Source: Candidatus Rokuibacteriota bacterium
GTDB taxonomy: Bacteria > Methylomirabilota > Methylomirabilia > Rokubacteriales > CSP1-6
Reading direction: 5' to 3'
Length of the DNA: 50,314 bases
Assembly: GCA_016866775.1 (NCBI GenBank)
Contig: VGLJ01000006.1
Span: forward strand, 1-50,314
Position numbers and translations under genes: made by a program. This document shows positions 15,246 to 47,368 of this stretch, in pieces. Numbering within the stretch: the stretch's first letter is position 1; every line of letters begins with the position of its first letter. Under the pieces are notes generated by a model, which worked only from the letters and a program-made list of their open reading frames with translations, searched no databases and was not told the origin of the DNA.

Positions 15246-16676
15246 GTGCTGGATCTCGTGATTCGCGGTGGACAGGTCGTGACGCCCCAGGGCGCGGGGA
15301 TGTGGGACATCGGTGTACAAGGCGAACGCATCGCCGCGATCGCGACGCCCGGCTCGCTGCCGGCGGAAGGCCGCGTGCTCGACGCGACGGGCAAGATCGT
15401 CGTTCCTGGCGGCGTCGAGCCGCACACGCACCTCGCCCACTTCGTCGGCATGTTCCCGGACGAGCAGTTCTACACCCTCGGTCCCGAGGACGACACGCGC
15501 GGGATGGTGTTCGGCGGCACCACCACGCACGTCGACTTCTGCTTCATCCGTCCGAACCAGCTCGACCTCGGCGCGGCCATCGAGCAGCGCGCGTCGCGGT
15601 GGAAGGGGCAGTCGTACAACGACTACAGCTTCCACGTGGCGCTGCAGGGCAAGCTGCCGATCCGCACGTTCGACCAGATCCCCGAGGCGATCCAGCAGGG
15701 GTTCCCCACGTTCAAGGTCTTCACGGTCAACGTGCTGCCCGAGCATCCGAAGCGTCCGCCGTACCGCCTGGACTTCGGCCGCATCGGCCACGCGATGCAG
15801 ATCGTGCGCGACAACGGCGGGCTCATGGTCGTCCACGCCGAGGACGAGGACCTGGTCCAGTTCAACTACGAGAAGTTCCGCGAGGACAAGCGGATGGAGG
15901 GCGCGAACCTGCCCTACGTCCACACGAAGCTCTCGGAGAAGCTCGCGTTCCGCCGGACGATCACGCTCGCCGGCGAGATCGGGGCGGCCGTGTACTTCGT
16001 CCACACCTCGGCGCTCGAGGGCGTCGAGGCCGTGCGCGAGGGGCGCGCGCTGGGGCTGCCGATCTACGCCGAGACGCTGCACCACTACGCGTGCTTCAGC
16101 GCCGAGGACTACAAGAAGCCGCAGGGCTTCTGCTATCACACGTATCCGTCGGCGAAGTGGAAGGAAGACCAGGACGCGCTGTGGAGCGGCCTCGTCACCG
16201 ACGGCGTGTCCGCCACCGCCACCGACGAGTTCCCGACGTCGCTCGAGCTCAAGCTCCGCGGCAAGACCATCGAGGACGTCACCGGCGGCAACCTCGGCGC
16301 CGAGGCGCGGATGGGGATCGTGTTCACCGAGGGCGTCGGCCGCCGCGGCATGTCGCTCGAGCGCTTCGTGGCGGTGACGTCGTCGAACGTCGCGAAGATC
16401 GTCGGGCTCTATCCGAAGAAGGGCGCGCTCGCGCCCGGCAGCGATGCCGACATCGTGTTCATCGACCCGTCGATCCGCCGCCCGCTGACGAAGACCGACT
16501 TCCACGTCAGCGACTACAGCCCGTGGGAAGGCTGGAACGTCCTCGGCTGGCCGGTGACGACGATCCTGCGCGGCAAGGTCGTCGTGAACAATGGAACGCT
16601 CTCCGGCGCTCCGGGCGACGGCCAGCTCGTCCACCGCCGGATCGGGGGCGACGTGCTGAGCCGCCCGGTCGCCTGA
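15246..16676 (+). CDS. second hydantoinase/dihydropyrimidinase homologue
   Basis: 476 residues from GTG 15246, with GAGGAGG seven bases upstream. The amidohydrolase core is preserved: His60 and His62 (EPHTHL), Lys157 (FPTFKVFTVN), His197 (VVHAED), His253 (YFVHTS). The last metal/catalytic Asp is Asp327, but in TATDEFP, not the usual SDH. The N-terminal motif is HTH rather than HVH or HIH. It is only distantly similar to the product of 11080-12498, so it probably acts on a different cyclic amide. Same operon, 18 bases after MmgE/PrpD. Confidence 0.88.
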   Translation: MLDLVIRGGQVVTPQGAGMWDIGVQGERIAAIATPGSLPAEGRVLDATGKIVVPGGVEPHTHLAHFVGMFPDEQFYTLGPEDDTRGMVFGGTTTHVDFCFIRPNQLDLGAAIEQRASRWKGQSYNDYSFHVALQGKLPIRTFDQIPEAIQQGFPTFKVFTVNVLPEHPKRPPYRLDFGRIGHAMQIVRDNGGLMVVHAEDEDLVQFNYEKFREDKRMEGANLPYVHTKLSEKLAFRRTITLAGEIGAAVYFVHTSALEGVEAVREGRALGLPIYAETLHHYACFSAEDYKKPQGFCYHTYPSAKWKEDQDALWSGLVTDGVSATATDEFPTSLELKLRGKTIEDVTGGNLGAEARMGIVFTEGVGRRGMSLERFVAVTSSNVAKIVGLYPKKGALAPGSDADIVFIDPSIRRPLTKTDFHVSDYSPWEGWNVLGWPVTTILRGKVVVNNGTLSGAPGDGQLVHRRIGGDVLSRPVA

Positions 16677-16678
16677 GC

Positions 16679-17454
16679 GTGGCGTCGCTGCGCGACCGGA
16701 TCGGACTCGATGCGGGCTCGCGGCGCCTGGAGGACGCGCTCGACTGGGCCGCGGAGCACGGATTCCACCACGTCGACTTCAACGCCGACCTCGAGGCCAA
16801 CCACCTCGTGCGCGGATGGGACGACGAGCGCGTGCGCGCGGTGCGGCGCACCTGCGAGCGGCACGGCATCCACCTCGGGCTCCACACCTCGTCCGCGGTC
16901 AACGTCGCGGAATATTCGCCGCACGTCGCCGAGGGCGTCGACGCCTGAAGGAGCGCGTCGCCGTCTCGCTGGAGCGGCTCGAGCGGCTGACGACCTACGC
17001 CGAGCGGCGCGGCGGTGCGCGCCTGCTGCTCGAGAATCTCAACCGCGAGCCGGATCGCGCGGAGGTGCGCTATCTCGGCCATACGGTCGCGGAATGTCAG
17101 CCGTACTTCGACGCGATCGGCTCTCCGCTGTTCGGCTGGGCCTTCACGGTGAACCACGCGCACCTCGTGCCCGAGGGCATCGGCGGCTTTCTCCACGCGT
17201 TCGGCGCCGGGCGGATCGGCGAGGTGCGTCTCGCCGACAACACCGGCGAGTACGAGATCCACTTGCCGCCGGGGAAGGGCACGATCGACTTCGGCACGCT
17301 GTTCCGCCGGCTCGAGGGCGCCGGCTACCGGCAGCACTACATGATGGCGTTCGGCGCCGACGCCGACAAGCTCGCCGCCCGGGACTATTTGGATCGTTTG
17401 AATTGGGGGGCTCCGGGCGCCCCCCAAGCCCCCCACGCTCCGGGCCCGGAATGA
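16679..17454 (+). pseudogene. sugar phosphate isomerase/epimerase-like (TIM barrel), internally deleted
   Basis: GTG 16679 opens a xylose-isomerase-like TIM barrel: DALDWAAEHGFHHVDFNADL, ERHGIHLGLHTSSAVNVAEY, then PHVAEGVDA and TGA at 16946-16948. The family continues in another frame with LKERVAVSLERLERLTTYAE, LLLENLNREPDR, VNHAHLVPEG and DNTGEYEIHLPPGKGTIDFG. Family members have about 30-40 residues between these parts (a segment ending near VVHAG-HF); they are absent, so this is a deletion plus frameshift. The last residues, GAPGAPQAPHAPGPE, are encoded by a palindromic repeat. It is a pseudogene, or the assembly lost a short segment here. Confidence 0.7.
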
Positions 17455-17470
17455 ATCCGGGCCCTCCGCG
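17403..17470 (-). repeat. palindromic G-rich repeat, full copy 1 (minus orientation)
   Basis: Read on the minus strand: CGCGGAGGGCCCGG leads into a perfect 9-bp hairpin (GGGCCCGGA against TCCGGGCCC), then the core GTGGGGGGCTTGGGGGG, then a second hairpin TTGGGGGGC/GCCCCCCAA. It supplies the last codons of the isomerase reading frame on the plus strand and fills the space before the cyclase gene. Same architecture as copies at 32401, 34221, 42223 and 47146. Confidence 0.8.
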
Positions 17471-17488
17471 CCTGCCCTTCGACTGACC

Positions 17489-25929: not shown

Positions 25930-25950
25930 GGAAGCGCGCCGCCGCCGGGC

Positions 25951-26670
25951 GTGCAGTACCAGTTCAAGTGGAGCGTGCTCTGGAGCGGCCAGTCCGCGGG
26001 CTGGCTGCTCCAGGGCCTCATCACCACGCTGGAGCTCTCGGCGCTGGCGTGGATCCTCGCCGTCTGCCTCGGCATCCTCGCGGGTGCCTTGCGCACGGTG
26101 ACGTTCGCGCCGCTGCGCGCGGCCGCCGTCTTCTACGTCGAGTTCTTCCGCAACGTCCCGCTGCTCGTCTGGATGTTTTTCTGGTACTTCGGCGTGCCGC
26201 CGCTGCTGCCGCGCGTGGTGCAGGACTGGCTCTTCAACCACGGGGCGGAGTTCTGGGCGGCCGTGATCGCGCTCGGCGTGTACACGGGTGCGCGCATGTC
26301 CGAAGTGATCCGCGCCGGCATCCTCTCGATCCCGCGCACGCAGTTCGAGGCGTCGCTGGCGATGGGGCTCACCGTCGGGCAGGCGTACCGGCTCATCATC
26401 CTGCCGATCGCGCTTCGCCTCATCGTTCCGCCGATGACCAACGAGTCGCTGAACCTCCTCAAGAACTCCTCGGTGGCGCTGACGATCAGCGTGGCCGAGC
26501 TCACGTTCCAGACGCGCCAGGTCGAGACGTACACCGCGAAGGCGATCGAAGCGCTGACCGCCGGCACGCTGATCTATCTCGTGCTGTGTCTCGGCATCGC
26601 GACCGTGATGAGCCGGCTCGAGCGGCGCTTCGCGATCCCGGGCCTGATCGCGCGCGTGGGGGCGGGATGA
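25951..26670 (+). CDS. polar amino-acid ABC transporter permease 1 (GltJ-like)
   Basis: 239 residues from GTG 25951. Membrane segments include WLLQGLITTLELSALAWILA and AAVIALGVYTGARMSEVIR; the conserved cytoplasmic loop reads FEASLAMGLTVGQAYRLIIL followed by PIALRLIVPPMTNESLN. FYVEFFRNVPLLVWMFFWYF is the HisM/GltJ signature. It pairs with permease 2 (27683-28357). A 45-bp inverted repeat and a lipoprotein gene separate the two, although such permease genes are normally adjacent. Confidence 0.92.
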   Translation: MQYQFKWSVLWSGQSAGWLLQGLITTLELSALAWILAVCLGILAGALRTVTFAPLRAAAVFYVEFFRNVPLLVWMFFWYFGVPPLLPRVVQDWLFNHGAEFWAAVIALGVYTGARMSEVIRAGILSIPRTQFEASLAMGLTVGQAYRLIILPIALRLIVPPMTNESLNLLKNSSVALTISVAELTFQTRQVETYTAKAIEALTAGTLIYLVLCLGIATVMSRLERRFAIPGLIARVGAG

Positions 26671-26699
26671 TCGCACCTCGGGGCGGAATCAGCGCGCGG

Positions 26700-26890
26700 C
26701 GGAAGCGCAACGCGCGGGCGGCAGCGCCGGCGTGCCCGGCGGGGCCTCTGACCCCCGAGAGTCGGCGGCCCGGTCCGACGCTCGTTATTTCCATCGAACC
26801 GTCTGCGGCCGCCTCGATGAGCCGTTCCGGGGACGGGTCAACCGTCCCCGCCGGGCACGCCGGCGCTGCCGCCCGCGCGTTGCGCTTCCG
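26700..26890. repeat. 45-bp perfect inverted repeat with 101-nt loop
   Basis: Arms 26700-26744 and 26846-26890 are exact reverse complements over 45 bp (starting CGGAAGCGCAACGCGCGGGC). The loop of 101 bases holds a nested 9-bp hairpin (CGGGGACGG against CCGTCCCCG) that overlaps the right arm, so two alternative folds compete. No target-site duplication is obvious. It fills the gap between permease 1 and the lipoprotein gene. It may be a MITE-like element, a very stable transcript-processing hairpin, or a fold-back assembly or replication product. Confidence 0.85.
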
Positions 26891-26897
26891 CGGTGCC

Positions 26898-27686
26898 GTG
26901 GCTTCGCGCTTTGGCCGTGCGCTTGCTGTCCTGCTGCTTCTTGCGGTTGTTGCCGCGGGATGCGCGGCGGTGCGGCCCGTGGCCGAGCTGCAGCCGCTGC
27001 TGCGGCCTCACGACGCGCTGTTCAAGCCTGACGGCGACGGGCCGTTCCCCGCGGTGGTGATCCTGCACGGCTGCCTCGGCGTGCGGAGCAAAGACACGCG
27101 CTGGGCGCAGCGCCTGCGCGACCAGGGGTACGTCACGCTCGTCGTCGACAGCCTCACGGGCCGCGACCTCGTCACGTTCGAGCAGCGGCGGGGCGTGTGC
27201 GCCGGCTTCACGCTGTGGGGCGGCACGCGCGCGGACGACGTCCGGGCGAGCCTGGCGTACCTTCGCACGCTGCCCTACGTCGACGGATCGCGTCTCGCCG
27301 TGATCGGCTTCTCACACGGCGCGTGGGCCGCGCTCGACCTGTTGACGAGTGCCGCGGACGACGACGTGCACGGGCTCCGCGCGGTCATGGGGTTCTATCC
27401 CTACTGTGGCGTCGTGTCGCGCGCGCACTGGCTCCGCTTCCGCGTCGACGTGCCCACGCTGCTGCTCCTCGGGGCCCGGGATCGCACCGTGTCCGCGAGC
27501 CAGTGCGAGACCATCGCCGCGCGCGAGGCCGAGAGCGGCCGGCGCGTCGCCGTGACCGTCTATCCCGACGTCGGCCACAACTTCGACTGGCGCTGGTCCG
27601 CGGCCACCGAGGACGCGCAGCGCCGCGCGAGCGCGTTCCTCGCCGAGCACCTCGCCGGCTCCCGGCAGGCGGCCGTCACGCGATGA
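26898..27686 (+). CDS. lipoprotein dienelactone-hydrolase-family protein
   Basis: 262 residues from GTG 26898, which starts a clean lipoprotein signal: ASRFGRALAVLLLLAVVAAG with the lipobox Cys directly after. An ATG at 26817 is in frame but would place the inverted-repeat arm inside the protein. The alpha/beta-hydrolase domain shows PAVVILHGCLGVRSKD, the nucleophile region FSHGAW (Ser), an Asp in LLLGARDRTV and His in YPDVGHNFDW. Usual dienelactone hydrolases have Cys as nucleophile; here the elbow is GFSHG, as in serine members. It sits inside an amino-acid ABC operon and overlaps permease 2 by four bases. Confidence 0.82.
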   Translation: MASRFGRALAVLLLLAVVAAGCAAVRPVAELQPLLRPHDALFKPDGDGPFPAVVILHGCLGVRSKDTRWAQRLRDQGYVTLVVDSLTGRDLVTFEQRRGVCAGFTLWGGTRADDVRASLAYLRTLPYVDGSRLAVIGFSHGAWAALDLLTSAADDDVHGLRAVMGFYPYCGVVSRAHWLRFRVDVPTLLLLGARDRTVSASQCETIAAREAESGRRVAVTVYPDVGHNFDWRWSAATEDAQRRASAFLAEHLAGSRQAAVTR

Positions 27687-32400: not shown

Positions 32401-32479
32401 CGGCACTCGCGGAGCGGCACGGCTTCGCCGGGCCGCGGAGCGCTGGGGGGCTTGGGGGGCGCCCGGAGCCCCCCCATGT
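32401..32479 (+). repeat. palindromic G-rich repeat, full copy 2
   Basis: Starts CGGCACTCGCGGAGCGG, then a GGCTTCGCC hairpin, the core (CTGGGGGGCTTGGGGGG here), and a second hairpin GGGGGGC/GCCCCCC, ending CCCCATGT. It occupies nearly the whole space between glutamate dehydrogenase and the following hydrolase gene. Confidence 0.8.
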
Positions 32480-33317: not shown

Positions 33318-33338
33318 ATAGCGCGCGCGGCCTCCCGC

Positions 33339-34286
33339 GTGGCGCCCGGGGACGTCGCGCTCGCGCTGGTGACCGTGGTGCTCTGGGGCGCGGCGTTCGT
33401 CGCCACCCGGATCGGTCTCGACAGCTTCTCGCCGGCCCAGCTCGTCGCGCTGCGCTTCCTGATCGCGGCGGCGCCGGCCCTCTTCGTGGGGCGTCCGCCC
33501 GTGGCGTGGCCGGTGCTCATCGCGGGCGGGCTCACGCTCTACGCGGGGCAGTTCCTCTGCCAGTTCTTCGGCATCGCCAGCGGCATGCCGCCCGGCCTCG
33601 CGTCGCTGGTCGTCCAGACGCAGGCCCTGTTCACGGTGCTGTTCGCCGCGCTCGTGCTGCGCGAACGGCCGACGGCGCGGCAGTGGCTCGGCCTGGGCGT
33701 CGCGTCGACCGGCCTCGTGGTCATCGGCGCCACCGCGCACACCGGCGGGACCGCGGGCAGCGCGCTGACGCTGCTCGGCTTCGGCCTGACGCTCGTCTCG
33801 CCGATCAGCTTCGCGATCGGCAACGTGTATCTGAAGAAGATCGGCGCCCAGACGATCGGCGGGACGACCGATCTCGCGGTCGTGGCGTGGATGAGTCTCG
33901 TCCCGCCGCTGCCGGCGCTCGTGCTGTCACTCGTTTTCGACGGCGCCGGAGACATTCCGCGGGCCGTCGTCGCCGCTCCTTCGGCAGGATGGGTGGCGGC
34001 GCTCTCCCTCGGCGTGCTCGCCACGGTGGTCGCGTACACGATCTGGGGCACCCTGCTGCGCCGGTATCCCGTCGCGACCGTGGCGCCGTTCGCGCTGCTG
34101 GTGCCGTTCGTCGGCGCGCTCTCGTCCGCGCTCGTGCTCGGCGAGCGCTTCGGCCCGCTGCGGCTGCTCGGGATGGCCTGCGTCCTGGTCGGACTTGCCG
34201 TCATCGTGCTGCCGGTGCAGCGGCACTCGCGAAGGGCTCGGATTCATTCCGGGCCCGGAGCGCCGGGGGGCTTGGGGGGCCGCTAG
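33339..34286 (+). CDS. EamA/DMT-family transporter
   Basis: 315 residues from GTG 33339. Ten predicted membrane segments in two EamA halves, for instance VALALVTVVLWGAAFVATRI, PALFVGRPPVAWPVLIAGGL and, in the second half, ALSLGVLATVVAYTIWGTLL, with PFALLVPFVGALSSALVLGE near the end. Family members export amino acids, purines or other metabolites. The final 20 or so residues (RHSRRARIHSGPGAPGGLGG) are encoded by a palindromic repeat, so the original stop has been replaced by one downstream of the insertion. Confidence 0.88.
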   Translation: MAPGDVALALVTVVLWGAAFVATRIGLDSFSPAQLVALRFLIAAAPALFVGRPPVAWPVLIAGGLTLYAGQFLCQFFGIASGMPPGLASLVVQTQALFTVLFAALVLRERPTARQWLGLGVASTGLVVIGATAHTGGTAGSALTLLGFGLTLVSPISFAIGNVYLKKIGAQTIGGTTDLAVVAWMSLVPPLPALVLSLVFDGAGDIPRAVVAAPSAGWVAALSLGVLATVVAYTIWGTLLRRYPVATVAPFALLVPFVGALSSALVLGERFGPLRLLGMACVLVGLAVIVLPVQRHSRRARIHSGPGAPGGLGGR

Positions 34287-34299
34287 AGGCGGCCCCCAT
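34221..34299 (+). repeat. palindromic G-rich repeat, full copy 3 (forms 3' end of EamA gene)
   Basis: Starts CGGCACTCGCGAAGGGC, then a first inverted repeat round GATTCATTC, the core (CCGGGGGGCTTGGGGGG here) and a hairpin GGGGGCCGC/GCGGCCCCC with loop TAGAG, ending CCCCCAT. The TAG in the loop is the EamA stop codon. Confidence 0.8.
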
Positions 34300-41403: not shown

Positions 41404-42198
41404 TCACGGCCCCGACTCGGCGCAACGGAACCCCACGAAGTGGTGCCCGGCGGACGCGACGCGGCGCTCGTAGAAGCGGCGCCGCGTCACGCTGAGGTTC
41501 TCGGCCGGATCGTCGTGGCTCGCTCCGCGCACGACCACCGGCGCGCCCTCCGGAAACGCGGTCAACGGCCGCTGGGCGTCCTGGCTGAGAGGGTAGGGCA
41601 GGAGCGGGCTTGCCGTCCACTCGCGGAGGTTGCCGAGCAGGTCCTCGACGCCTTCGGGCGTGCGGCCGGCGGGCCGCGCCTCGCCGCGGTCCGTGGCGTT
41701 GTACGCGCGGCCGAAGACCGCGCGCTCGGGCGTCGGCGGCGCCGCGCCCCACGGGTAGCGGGCGCCCTGGAGGCCGCGCGCCGCGCGCTCCCACTCCGCT
41801 TCGGTCGGCAGGCGCCGGCCCTTCGACACGCAGTAGTCGCGCGCGCCGAACCACGAGACTTCCACGGCGGGATGCTCCGCGAATCCGGGATCGGCGATCC
41901 ATCGCCCGTCGCGCCGGTGGATGCGCGCGTCCGCATCGTCGTCGTCGTACCGCCGCCCATCCGGCCCGTTGAGCCCCGCGGCGTTCAGATACTCCGCGAA
42001 CTCGCGATTCGTGACTTTCCGGATCTGCAGACGAAACGCGGAGAGCGTGACCCGATGCGCCGGCGCCTCTTCCGGCGCGCCATCATCGCGTCCCATGACG
42101 AAGGCGCCGCCAGCGATCCGCACGAAGTCTCCCGCGCCGGCCGCCACGGTCGATAGCACGAGCGAGGAGACGATGACGAGCGCGATGACCCGGCGCAT
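41404..42198 (-). CDS. exported formylglycine-generating-enzyme (SUMF1) domain protein
   Basis: 264 residues. ATG 42198 is preferred to 42228 since MRRVIALVIVSSLVLSTVAA begins a proper signal peptide (cleavage after AGAG or near). SUMF1-fold pattern: FVRIAGGAFVMGRDDGAPEE, IRKVTNREFAEYLNAAGLNG, VSWFGARDYCVSKGRRLPTE, AEWERAARGLQG, VRGASHDDPAENLSVTRRRF and GFRCA. The catalytic Cys pair of true formylglycine enzymes is not evident, so this is a family relative of unknown role (EgtB, PvdO and others share the fold). The ligase ribosome binding site overlaps its stop. Confidence 0.82.
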   Translation of the reverse strand: MRRVIALVIVSSLVLSTVAAGAGDFVRIAGGAFVMGRDDGAPEEAPAHRVTLSAFRLQIRKVTNREFAEYLNAAGLNGPDGRRYDDDDADARIHRRDGRWIADPGFAEHPAVEVSWFGARDYCVSKGRRLPTEAEWERAARGLQGARYPWGAAPPTPERAVFGRAYNATDRGEARPAGRTPEGVEDLLGNLREWTASPLLPYPLSQDAQRPLTAFPEGAPVVVRGASHDDPAENLSVTRRRFYERRVASAGHHFVGFRCAESGP

Positions 42199-42222
42199 CG
42201 GCGCCGACTCTCTCACAGGGAG

Positions 42223-42303
42223 CGGCACTCGCGGAGGGCGGCGGCTTCACCGTCGCCCGAAGCGTGGGGGGCTTGGGGGGCCGCGAGAGGCGGCCCCTCA
42301 TGT
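42223..42303 (+). repeat. palindromic G-rich repeat, full copy 4
   Basis: Starts CGGCACTCGCGGAGGGCGG, an imperfect hairpin GGCGGCGG/CCGTCGCC with loop CTTCA, the core GTGGGGGGCTTGGGGGG and a hairpin GGGGCCGC/GCGGCCCC, ending CTCATGT. It fills the space between the FGE-domain gene and the stop codon of the response regulator. Confidence 0.8.
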
Positions 42304-42683
42304 CAACGAATCGTCAGGGCGGGCGGGCCGAGCGCGCTTTCGATTGCCGAGACGAGCACGGTGACGTCGAACGGCTTCGTGAGCGCGACGACGTGCGGAC
42401 GGTCCTTCACGGCACCGAGCTTGCCGGGATCGCCGGACACGACGATGACCGGCATCGTCTGCCACAGGGGTTGCGCGCGAAGCTGCGCGAGGAAGTCGAC
42501 GCCGCTGATGCCCGGGAGCGACAGATCGAGAATGAGCAGCTCGGGATGCAGCTCGTGCATCTGCTGGAGCGCTTCGTCGGGCGTGCCGACGGCGAGCGCG
42601 GGATAGCCGGCGTCTTCGACGATCGCGGCGATGATGTCCCGCAGATATTGCTGATCGTCCAGCACGAGCACCCTGGTCGCCAT
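42303..42683 (-). CDS. single-domain response regulator
   Basis: 126 residues; the whole protein is one receiver domain. Acidic pocket in VLVLDDQQ, phosphorylation Asp in LLILDLSLPGISG, conserved Ser in VIVVSGDPGK and Lys in ALTKPFD. No output domain, so it acts through protein contacts or as a phosphate relay. No kinase is adjacent; a hybrid kinase lies 5.7 kb away on the same strand. A palindromic repeat abuts its stop codon. Confidence 0.92.
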   Translation of the reverse strand: MATRVLVLDDQQYLRDIIAAIVEDAGYPALAVGTPDEALQQMHELHPELLILDLSLPGISGVDFLAQLRAQPLWQTMPVIVVSGDPGKLGAVKDRPHVVALTKPFDVTVLVSAIESALGPPALTIR

Positions 42684-42871
42684 GTCCGAGTGCTCAACCA
42701 GGCAAATTCACGCCCAATGTTTCACTCGCGGTCCCATGCGGACTTACGGCGCATGACGCGGTGCGCCCGGCGTCAAGCTGGCGGAAGTCGTGTCACCGCG
42801 CCAACGCGATGAAGCGATCCCCGCCGCCGGGCGTCAGACGAGGTGAAAGGGGGCGCACAAGGAGAAAAGCC

Positions 42872-45648: not shown

Positions 45649-46572
45649 GTGACCGACGTCGTCGGCTTCGGCGCGCAGCTCAAGCCGCATCCGCCCGCCG
45701 AGCAGTGGGACACCGTGCGGGCCGTCGAGCGCGCGGGCTTCGACTCCGTGTGGACCGGCGACCACGTCTCGTTCCACAACCCGCTCTACGAGTCGCTGAC
45801 GCTGCTGGCCTCGTACGCGGCGATCACCACCCGCATCAGGCTCGGCACGGGCGTCTATCTCCTGGCGCTGCGTCCGCCGGCGGTCGCGGCGAAGATCACG
45901 GCGACGCTCGACGCGCTCTCCGGAGGCCGGCTCATCTTCGGCGTGGGCGTCGGCGGCGAGAACCCCAAGGAGTTCGAGCTCGCCGGCTCACCGCACAGGG
46001 AGCGCGGGGCGCGGGTGACCGAGGGCATCGACGTCGTCCGCACGCTCTGGCGCGACACGCCCGCGTCCTTCGACGGGCGCTTCACGAAGTTCAGCGGCGT
46101 GTCGATCGATCCGAAGCCCGTCCAGAAGCCGGGCCCGCCGATCTGGATCGGCGGGCGCTCCGACGCCGCGCTCGCCCGCGCCGGACGCCAGGGGGACGGC
46201 TGGATCTCCTACGTCGTGCAGCCGTCGCGCTTCAAGGAGAGCGTCGCCAAGATCCACGCCGCCGCCGGCGGCCGGCCGCTCGACGATTTCGTCGCCGCGC
46301 ACCTGACGTTCATCACCGTCGGCAAGGACTACGAGAGCGCGAAGGCGACGTGGGTGCGGCTCCTCACGAAGCGGTACGCGCAGGACTTCGGCCCGCTCGC
46401 CGAGAAGTACGGCGTGATCGGCACGCCGGCGCAGTGCGCGGAGCAGCTCCACAGGTTCGTGGACGCGGGCTGCCGCTACTTCGTGATGGACTCCATCGTG
46501 GACGGCGCCGAGGAGCAGGCGCACCTGGAGACCATCGCGGCCGAGATCATCCCCACGTTCCGGTCGCGCTGA
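45649..46572 (+). CDS. LLM-class flavin (F420-type) oxidoreductase
   Basis: 307 residues from GTG 45649. Luciferase-like TIM barrel: VGFGAQLKPHPPAEQWDTVR, FDSVWTGDHVSFHNP, TTRIRLGTGVYLLALRPPAV, LDALSGGRLIFGVGVGGENP and GPPIWIGGRSDAALARAGRQ. The TGDHV and GVGGENPKEFE elements point to the F420- or FMN-using LLM group rather than luciferase itself. The next gene is a flavin/NAD(P)H reductase-like protein 4 bases on, so the pair may form a two-component oxidoreductase; substrate unknown. Confidence 0.88.
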   Translation: MTDVVGFGAQLKPHPPAEQWDTVRAVERAGFDSVWTGDHVSFHNPLYESLTLLASYAAITTRIRLGTGVYLLALRPPAVAAKITATLDALSGGRLIFGVGVGGENPKEFELAGSPHRERGARVTEGIDVVRTLWRDTPASFDGRFTKFSGVSIDPKPVQKPGPPIWIGGRSDAALARAGRQGDGWISYVVQPSRFKESVAKIHAAAGGRPLDDFVAAHLTFITVGKDYESAKATWVRLLTKRYAQDFGPLAEKYGVIGTPAQCAEQLHRFVDAGCRYFVMDSIVDGAEEQAHLETIAAEIIPTFRSR

Positions 46573-46576
46573 CCCG

Positions 46577-47368
46577 GTGGCGGCGCCTCCGCGCGAGTGC
46601 CGCGCCGTGGTCGTCGCGACCCGCGCCCTGGCGCCCGCGATCCTCGAAGCCGACCTGCGCACGGAGGATCCGCCCGCACTCACGTTCGCCGCGGGTCAGT
46701 GGATCTCCGTGCCGTTCGGACCGAAGACCGTCCGCGCGTATTCGATCGCGTCGACGCCGCGGTCACCGTCGGTCATCACGCTCTCGGCCGACGTCACGCC
46801 GGGCGGACCGGGGTCGCGGTGGTTCCGCGAGCTCGCGCCCGGGATCGCGGTGACGTTCAAGGGCCCGCTCGGCGGGTTCGTCTTCGACCGCGCGGATGCC
46901 AGACACCCATTGTTCGTGGCCGAGGAAATCGGTATCGTCCCGATCCGGGCCATGCTCCGCGACCTCGACGAGCGCGGCGTCGCGCGCGCCACGACGCTCG
47001 TCTACTGGGCCCGGGACCCGGGCTGGCTCGTGTACGACGAGGACTTCCGGCGGCTCGCGGGCCGCAGGCCGAGCTTCAGCTATCGCCCGATCGTCGGCGC
47101 GTCGCTGGCCGCCGCGGTCGCCGCCGCGGCCGACGAGATCCTGGCCACTCGCGGAGGCGAGATCCCGGGCGGTCGCGGAGGGCCGGGATTCACTCCCGGG
47201 CCGGAGCGTGGGGGGGCTTGGGGGGACCGTCTCGGTCCCCCCATGTATGTCGCTCCCCCCATGGCATATGTCGCGGGGGGCGCGGCGACCATCGCGGCGG
47301 CGCGCGAGGTGCTGATGGCGCGCGGGCTCGACCGCAAGTCGATCAAGTGGGAGAAGTTCTATGGCTGA
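46577..47368 (+). CDS. ferredoxin-reductase-type FAD/NAD(P)-binding oxidoreductase with in-frame repeat insertion
   Basis: 263 residues from GTG 46577. The FAD domain shows GQWISVPFGP and RAYSIASTPR (R-x-Y-S), the NAD domain HPLFVAEEIGIVPIRAMLRD (variant of G-T-G-I-AP) and, near the end, AYVAGGAATIAAAREVLMAR (usual place of the Cys-Gly-Pro motif) and KSIKWEKFYG. Between residues about 191 and 225 lies GGEIPGGRGGPGFTPGPERG and GAWGDRLGPPMYVA, a Gly/Pro-rich insert encoded wholly by a palindromic repeat. The frame is kept. The insert falls in a surface loop before the last strand, so activity may survive. Confidence 0.82.
   Translation: MAAPPRECRAVVVATRALAPAILEADLRTEDPPALTFAAGQWISVPFGPKTVRAYSIASTPRSPSVITLSADVTPGGPGSRWFRELAPGIAVTFKGPLGGFVFDRADARHPLFVAEEIGIVPIRAMLRDLDERGVARATTLVYWARDPGWLVYDEDFRRLAGRRPSFSYRPIVGASLAAAVAAAADEILATRGGEIPGGRGGPGFTPGPERGGAWGDRLGPPMYVAPPMAYVAGGAATIAAAREVLMARGLDRKSIKWEKFYG
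47146..47246 (+). repeat. palindromic G-rich repeat, full copy 5, inside a coding sequence
   Basis: CACTCGCGGAG at 47146, a first hairpin round GATTCACTC, the core (GTGGGGGGGCTTGGGGGG here, one extra G) and a perfect hairpin TGGGGGGACC/GGTCCCCCCA with loop GTCTC, ending CATGT. It lies wholly inside the reductase gene and is read in frame. Confidence 0.82.

Follow-up and report, generated by a model that had tools for sequence, protein, structure and literature searches.

An in-frame copy of RokuREP, a dispersed REP-like hairpin repeat, within a flavin reductase gene of Candidatus Rokubacteria

How can a palindromic repeat come to lie inside a conserved gene whose reading frame remains open? 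This question is raised by a reductase gene within a window of 50,314 nt (the whole stretch of DNA analysed here), derived from the draft genome of an uncultivated soil bacterium of a high-GC environmental lineage (Candidatus Rokubacteria; 5.13-Mb assembly in 159 contigs, 97.5% complete). The gene (positions 46577-47368, + strand) encodes a 263-aa FAD/NAD-binding reductase of the ferredoxin-reductase superfamily (Pfam FAD_binding_6), which is BenC/NqrF/MmoC-like; the top Foldseek matches were GcoB (5ogx) and the benzoate dioxygenase reductase BenC (1krh), with NqrF also among the matches. Its closest named relatives all originate from Candidatus Rokubacteria/Rokuibacteriota, with three exceptions, of which two are distant matches and one bears the label Deltaproteobacteria. 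The reductase gene is located downstream of a gene for a luciferase-like (LLM) F420-type oxidoreductase (the pair spans 45649-47368). In the Rokubacteria, members of this reductase family carry EEIGIVP in place of the usual NAD-binding glycine motif, and have a conserved KWEKFW C-terminus.

The original prediction placed the repeat in frame within this gene, and the ORF is indeed open throughout. The repeat-derived segment spans positions 47143-47268, all of its parts being on the + strand. It contains one full copy (47168-47247; in-frame translation GGRGGPGFTPGPERGGAWGDRLGPPM), which aligns to the family consensus through CCCCCCATGT and was recognized over positions 47168-47243 by a covariance model built from other copies (R1; 83.2 bits, E 6e-11). 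This copy is composed of (i) the hairpin 1 region (47180-47202, GGGCCGGGATTCACTCCCGGGCC; z-score of the DNA fold of the copy, -3.9), (ii) a G6-CTT-G6 core (47211-47225), which is near-invariant in the family, and (iii) hairpin 2 (47219-47243, GGGGGGACCGTCTCGGTCCCCCC), followed by ATG. The full copy is flanked by two pieces of a second copy that is either older or nested: a 5′ remnant (47146-47163, CACTCGCGGAGG...), identical over 12 bases to the 5′ end of the family, and a 3′ remnant (47250-47266, TCGCTCCCCCCATGGCA), matching its 3′ end. This nested arrangement, which corrects the layout given in the original prediction, probably reflects either two hits on the loop of the reductase or a tandem pair that became rearranged there. 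The extra segment amounts to approximately 38-40 codons gross, and to approximately 27 residues net over the homologous proteins.

Homologues from related genomes had been proposed as a check on the insertion. We read 30 reductase loci, i.e. that of the window and those of 29 relatives of the same family, and the comparison upheld the claim: nearly all of the relatives encode proteins of approximately 236 aa, and none of them contains the repeat-coded residues. Conserved motifs are retained downstream of the insert in the window protein. In a structural model generated with AlphaFold2 from 27 sequences (mean pLDDT 80.6), the insert forms a disordered loop (residues 199-222, with values below 50) in an otherwise normal fold. 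This loop is situated between a helix (177-190) and a strand (229-235) bearing the Y-V-(A/S/C)-G-G motif. The insert is located within the NAD-binding domain, but not directly before the last strand, since a further strand (256-262) still follows. Most likely, it has no function and is either neutral or mildly harmful.

The repeat, for which we coined the name RokuREP, is a dispersed, high-copy REP-like element. A covariance model built from a MAFFT alignment of 28 copies detected at least 150 copies in the genome, which is a lower bound; rescanning of 439 kb with the model added only two weaker copies to the 150 listed, so there are probably not many more than 150 in reality. The core pattern was matched 46 times in the genome, compared with zero matches for the reversed control. 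The repeat unit is approximately 76-88 bp in length and has a fixed order (hairpin 1, G6-CTT-G6 core, hairpin 2, ATG), with the consensus GGCACTCGCGGAGGGCnnnGATTCAnTCnnnGCCCGGAGCG-NN-GGGGGGCTTGGGGGG-hairpin 2-CCCCCCATGT. Conservation begins approximately 2 bases ahead of GGC and declines over no more than 10 bases past the terminal CCA. The two hairpins arranged around the core are unlike each other, and hairpin 1 is enclosed by an outer helix (CGC/GCG) that has an internal loop (GGA/GGA). No match to the repeat was found among phage and plasmid DNA, and the hairpin 1 pattern gave none in other GTDB genomes, a collection from which records of the host genome itself are possibly absent. Nor did a literature search retrieve any paper describing such repeats from Rokubacteria.

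Conservation of the two hairpins was examined in an alignment of 119 copies, which was fitted to the proposed structure. Standard pairs occupy 95.5% of the pair cells, two-sided changes occur at 17 of the 22 stem pairs, and the covariation score reaches 0.339, versus 0.081 in shuffles. Compensatory changes were found at all nine pairs of helix 2, in the hairpin 1 region, and for hairpin 1 the result is in agreement with the initial alignment (28 copies, MAFFT). Perfect palindromes constitute the majority of stem variants. Within the stems, G-U pairs (34) do not outnumber A-C mismatches (41), which gives no indication of selection on the sense RNA strand. We infer that this pattern better fits a hairpin needed as DNA, or correction of one arm by the other, than selection on a one-strand RNA.

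Besides the reductase insert, the window contains four copies of RokuREP, all detected with the covariance model. One of them, on the - strand (17404-17476), contains the end of a + strand ORF (16942-17454). A second (32402-32476, +) separates two co-directional genes, and another (34222-34298, +) constitutes the C-terminal tail of ORF 33336-34286, whose TAG stop codon is located in the loop of hairpin 2. The remaining copy (42224-42300, +) is placed between two genes of the - strand (41404-42210 and 42303-42695). The product of the aforementioned ORF 16942-17454, a TIM-barrel protein (AP_endonuc_2), matches only the C-terminal part of its family. A short upstream ORF (16670-16948) overlaps it in a different frame, and a frameshift within 16670-17454 is therefore possible. 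The window also carries an inverted repeat unrelated to RokuREP (26683-26907; 62-nt arms, 89% complementary, 101 nt apart), which is located between genes 25945-26670 and 26964-27686.

Throughout the genome, RokuREP avoids the interior of genes: only 11 of the 150 copies are internal, though approximately 93% of the sequence examined was called as coding. The others are placed at gene ends, mostly just after them, with a median gap to the nearest gene end of 3-19 bases, save at a few divergent sites. Sites between convergent genes are enriched (36 of 134 copies, versus 35 of 414 in the background) and those between divergent genes are depleted (5 of 134, versus 75 of 414). No gene-breaking insertion was seen among the copies examined.

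A search for coding insertions over the whole genome, which the original prediction had also suggested, revealed the same repeat inside at least 10 other genes. Thus, among the 150 copies listed, at least 11 genes have an internal in-frame copy with coding sequence on both sides, as judged with a home-made coding-potential model for which genes recognized in the window served as the seed. Besides the reductase, the hosts comprise ten members of known Pfam families: LigD, an AMP-ligase, HtpG, a ceramidase-like protein, an amidohydrolase, LpxB, LarC, a GcvT-like protein, FtsI and a histidine kinase. Each in-frame insertion adds approximately 25 residues, rich in Gly, Pro, Ser and Arg; all three forward frames are used, and the peptide differs from host to host. 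Nine of the 11 internal copies are in the same strand as the gene, and six of these nine are read in one frame, biases that are not significant when the openness of the frames is taken into account (P 0.07 and 0.13 for frame and strand, respectively).

In all four host genes compared (those for the reductase, LarC, HtpG and LpxB), the insert is missing from relatives. LarC has matches in 49 of the 56 other genomes of the family, typically split into residues 4-245 and 274-418, and its homologues have a short linker at the insert site. The HtpG insert is missing in two relatives (G027 and G051) as well as in PDB 2iop, while alignment of LpxB with 5w8s covers residues 2-203 and 276-374, on either side of the insert. 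The segments would accordingly represent insertions, a reading drawn from presence and absence between genera whose homologues are approximately 50-67% identical.

Copies located at gene ends also extend predicted reading frames. In 20 more genes, the frame runs through an entire copy, which forms a C-terminal tail, and approximately 32 genes terminate within a copy. In trpC-trpF (L216:1801-1876), approximately 25 C-terminal residues of TrpC are encoded by the repeat, which terminates in an ATGA stop/start overlap and thus supplies the start codon of trpF. When 15 ORF pairs flanking abutting copies, including purD/purE, rplT/pheS and trpC/trpF, were compared with Pfam, where some members had no match, no split gene was seen.

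The three forward frames of the repeat are open in 142, 142 and 131 of the 150 copies, respectively (87-95%, versus 76% of the frames of shuffled elements), and this openness is in part merely a consequence of the high GC content. Since none of the three forward frames is closed in most copies, a gene that receives an insertion of suitable length gains residues rather than being stopped, and it is for this reason that in-frame copies persist in loops, linkers and tails.

The repeat superfamily was found in 35 of the 56 other family genomes; outside the family, none of the 38 genomes from its order or class contained it. Copy numbers over the 57 family genomes range from zero to approximately 220, the highest being that of G030. 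In G032, a genome of another genus, the reductase gene (L040/L299; G032:C112:11600-11689) carries an in-frame sister repeat, which has the same order of parts (hairpin 1, G-rich core, hairpin 2, ATG) and occurs at more than 40 places in that genome. The G032 insert precedes the reductase helix, whereas that of the window follows the same helix, which is why we regard the two insertions as independent. In G030, one copy lies within a methyltransferase gene. Another (L268:1039-2502) joins an RpiB ORF and a 6-phosphogluconate-dehydrogenase-like ORF in one frame, which represents either a fused enzyme or two genes that have lost the stop codon separating them. Tandem or partial arrays, including duplicated hairpin 1 units, were observed in the high-copy relatives G030 and G008 (loci L261 and L103).

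These observations very probably mean that the segment within the reductase is one copy of a family-specific repeat, RokuREP, which survives in frame where a disordered peptide is tolerated. Copies would arrive by a hairpin-dependent process acting on single-stranded DNA, driven by an enzyme that either was not found or has been lost. Selection would then purge the insertions that break genes, and the surviving in-gene copies would be those with a net length of 3n in exposed loops or linkers able to accommodate a disordered peptide. The fate of a copy after insertion is better supported than its mode of movement. No Y1/RAYT transposase (PF01797) was detected in the host genome (a 97.5% complete draft), no consistent direct repeat was found between the flanks of 150 copies, and terminal inverted repeats are lacking, the left and right ends being unlike. 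A Y1/RAYT enzyme was also rejected as the current mobilizer because none was detected in the host genome and the presence of Y1 genes within the family does not track copy number. According to a broader and rather doubtful proposal, the superfamily, confined to one Rokubacterial family, spreads without RAYT/Y1 and repeatedly supplies translatable linkers and tails, as in the loop region of the same enzyme entered twice in different genera, the extensions at operon junctions, where stop/start coupling is kept, and the fusions of neighbouring enzymes. If true, free-living bacteria would have in it a constant supply of new protein segments.

A rival possibility, to which we assign a minor but real share, is that RokuREP is a transcribed RNA element, such as a REP-like stabilizer or processing signal of mRNA, which is selected at gene ends and enters genes only by accident. 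Its placement at 3′ ends, enrichment between convergent genes and avoidance of promoters agree with such a role, as does the stability of the stems, while the lack of any excess of G-U pairs over A-C mismatches speaks against it, as does the result for Rfam, where the window and seven copy-bearing loci gave no match at the gathering threshold. This explanation is compatible with the preferred reading of the in-gene copies. It is improbable, by comparison, that the repeat has been co-opted as a useful flexible linker or tail and is maintained by selection. The independent gain of hairpin-repeat inserts by two genera in this one enzyme, before the helix in one case and after it in the other, would accord with usefulness, as would the TrpC tail with its ATGA overlap and the uniting of RpiB and the dehydrogenase-like ORF in G030. 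The hosts, however, are unrelated enzymes, all three forward frames are used, the peptides differ, that of the reductase is modelled as disordered, and tolerance alone suffices to explain loops and tails.

Two further explanations concern the integrity of the genes. With an insert in its NAD-binding domain, the reductase might be less active, and the hosts might be decaying pseudogenes or low-activity relics; this we consider very unlikely, because the frames are intact with strong coding scores on either side, motifs are kept past the insert, the reductase, HtpG and LarC genes are single-copy (one genomic match each), and functions of an essential type are affected (LpxB, FtsI, HtpG). Joining of short reads at the repeat might be suspected in a draft of 159 contigs with repeats of approximately 76 bp, which is near the size of a read overlap. 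Such misassembly is scarcely credible, given that the flanks of each internal copy encode, in the same frame, the two parts of a single conserved protein, an outcome not to be had from a random join, and that all 119 aligned copies are distinct in sequence.

Among known systems, RokuREP resembles the GTAG/CGTC REPs, which are short, high-copy hairpins found mostly just past the ends of genes and in the gaps between convergent or unidirectional genes, and which likewise form subfamilies with alternative complementary stems, provide some stop codons and occur rarely in frame in conserved genes (PMC3733652). Intragenic GTAG/CGTC REPs are found in ORFs of several species, with in-frame dimers encoding 20-30 residues, and CGTC families, too, are without a known transposase (PMC3733652). 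RokuREP differs from them in its consensus (GGCACTCGCGGAGG...CCCCCCATGT), which has neither GTAG nor CGTC at the foot of the stem, in the fixed asymmetric pair of unlike hairpins around G6-CTT-G6, and in its occurrence in a different phylum, in a host genome without RAYT.

The original prediction had pointed to the Rickettsia palindromic elements (RPEs) as a parallel, describing them as unrelated in sequence. RPEs, too, are found in frame in unrelated conserved genes, often in loops, while relatives are without them (PMC2229807, PMC10969869). They are palindromes of 105-146 bp with terminal inverted repeats (PMC2229807), an anatomy that sets RokuREP (approximately 76-88 bp, with unlike hairpins and ends) apart, and the claim that an element unlike them, here in anatomy, entered the gene in frame holds. 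Nearly half of the RPE copies are coding (PMC10969869), a larger share than that of RokuREP (11 internal copies and approximately 20 tails among 150). Independent protein-coding palindromic repeats with the same behaviour are cited for Wolbachia and Methanocaldococcus jannaschii in PMC2996958. The non-autonomous MITEs ERIC, YPAL and QMITE also generate in-frame fusions, often C-terminal (PMC2229807, PMC5896051), as RokuREP does; the terminal inverted repeats and the usual target duplication of MITEs were not seen in RokuREP.

The original prediction, which described a second, independent family of protein-invading palindromes, is contradicted in its count by the precedents from Wolbachia, M. 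jannaschii, ERIC/YPAL and the GTAG/CGTC REPs (PMC2229807, PMC2996958, PMC3733652, PMC10969869). RokuREP is a separate family among such repeats, not the second one known; judging from its sequence, it appears to belong to this kind as a dispersed structured repeat, in frame in conserved genes that have insert-free homologues. The best-known coding palindromes, RPE and those of Wolbachia, inhabit intracellular bacteria with small populations, in which harmful insertions can drift to fixation. RokuREP extends this rare phenomenon to a new bacterial lineage, with an environmental high-GC genome of approximately 5 Mb and copies in housekeeping genes (htpG, lpxB, larC and ftsI). Its family of 57 genomes, with zero to approximately 220 copies and at least one parallel invasion of the same enzyme, makes it possible to test directly if such inserts are only tolerated or sometimes kept.
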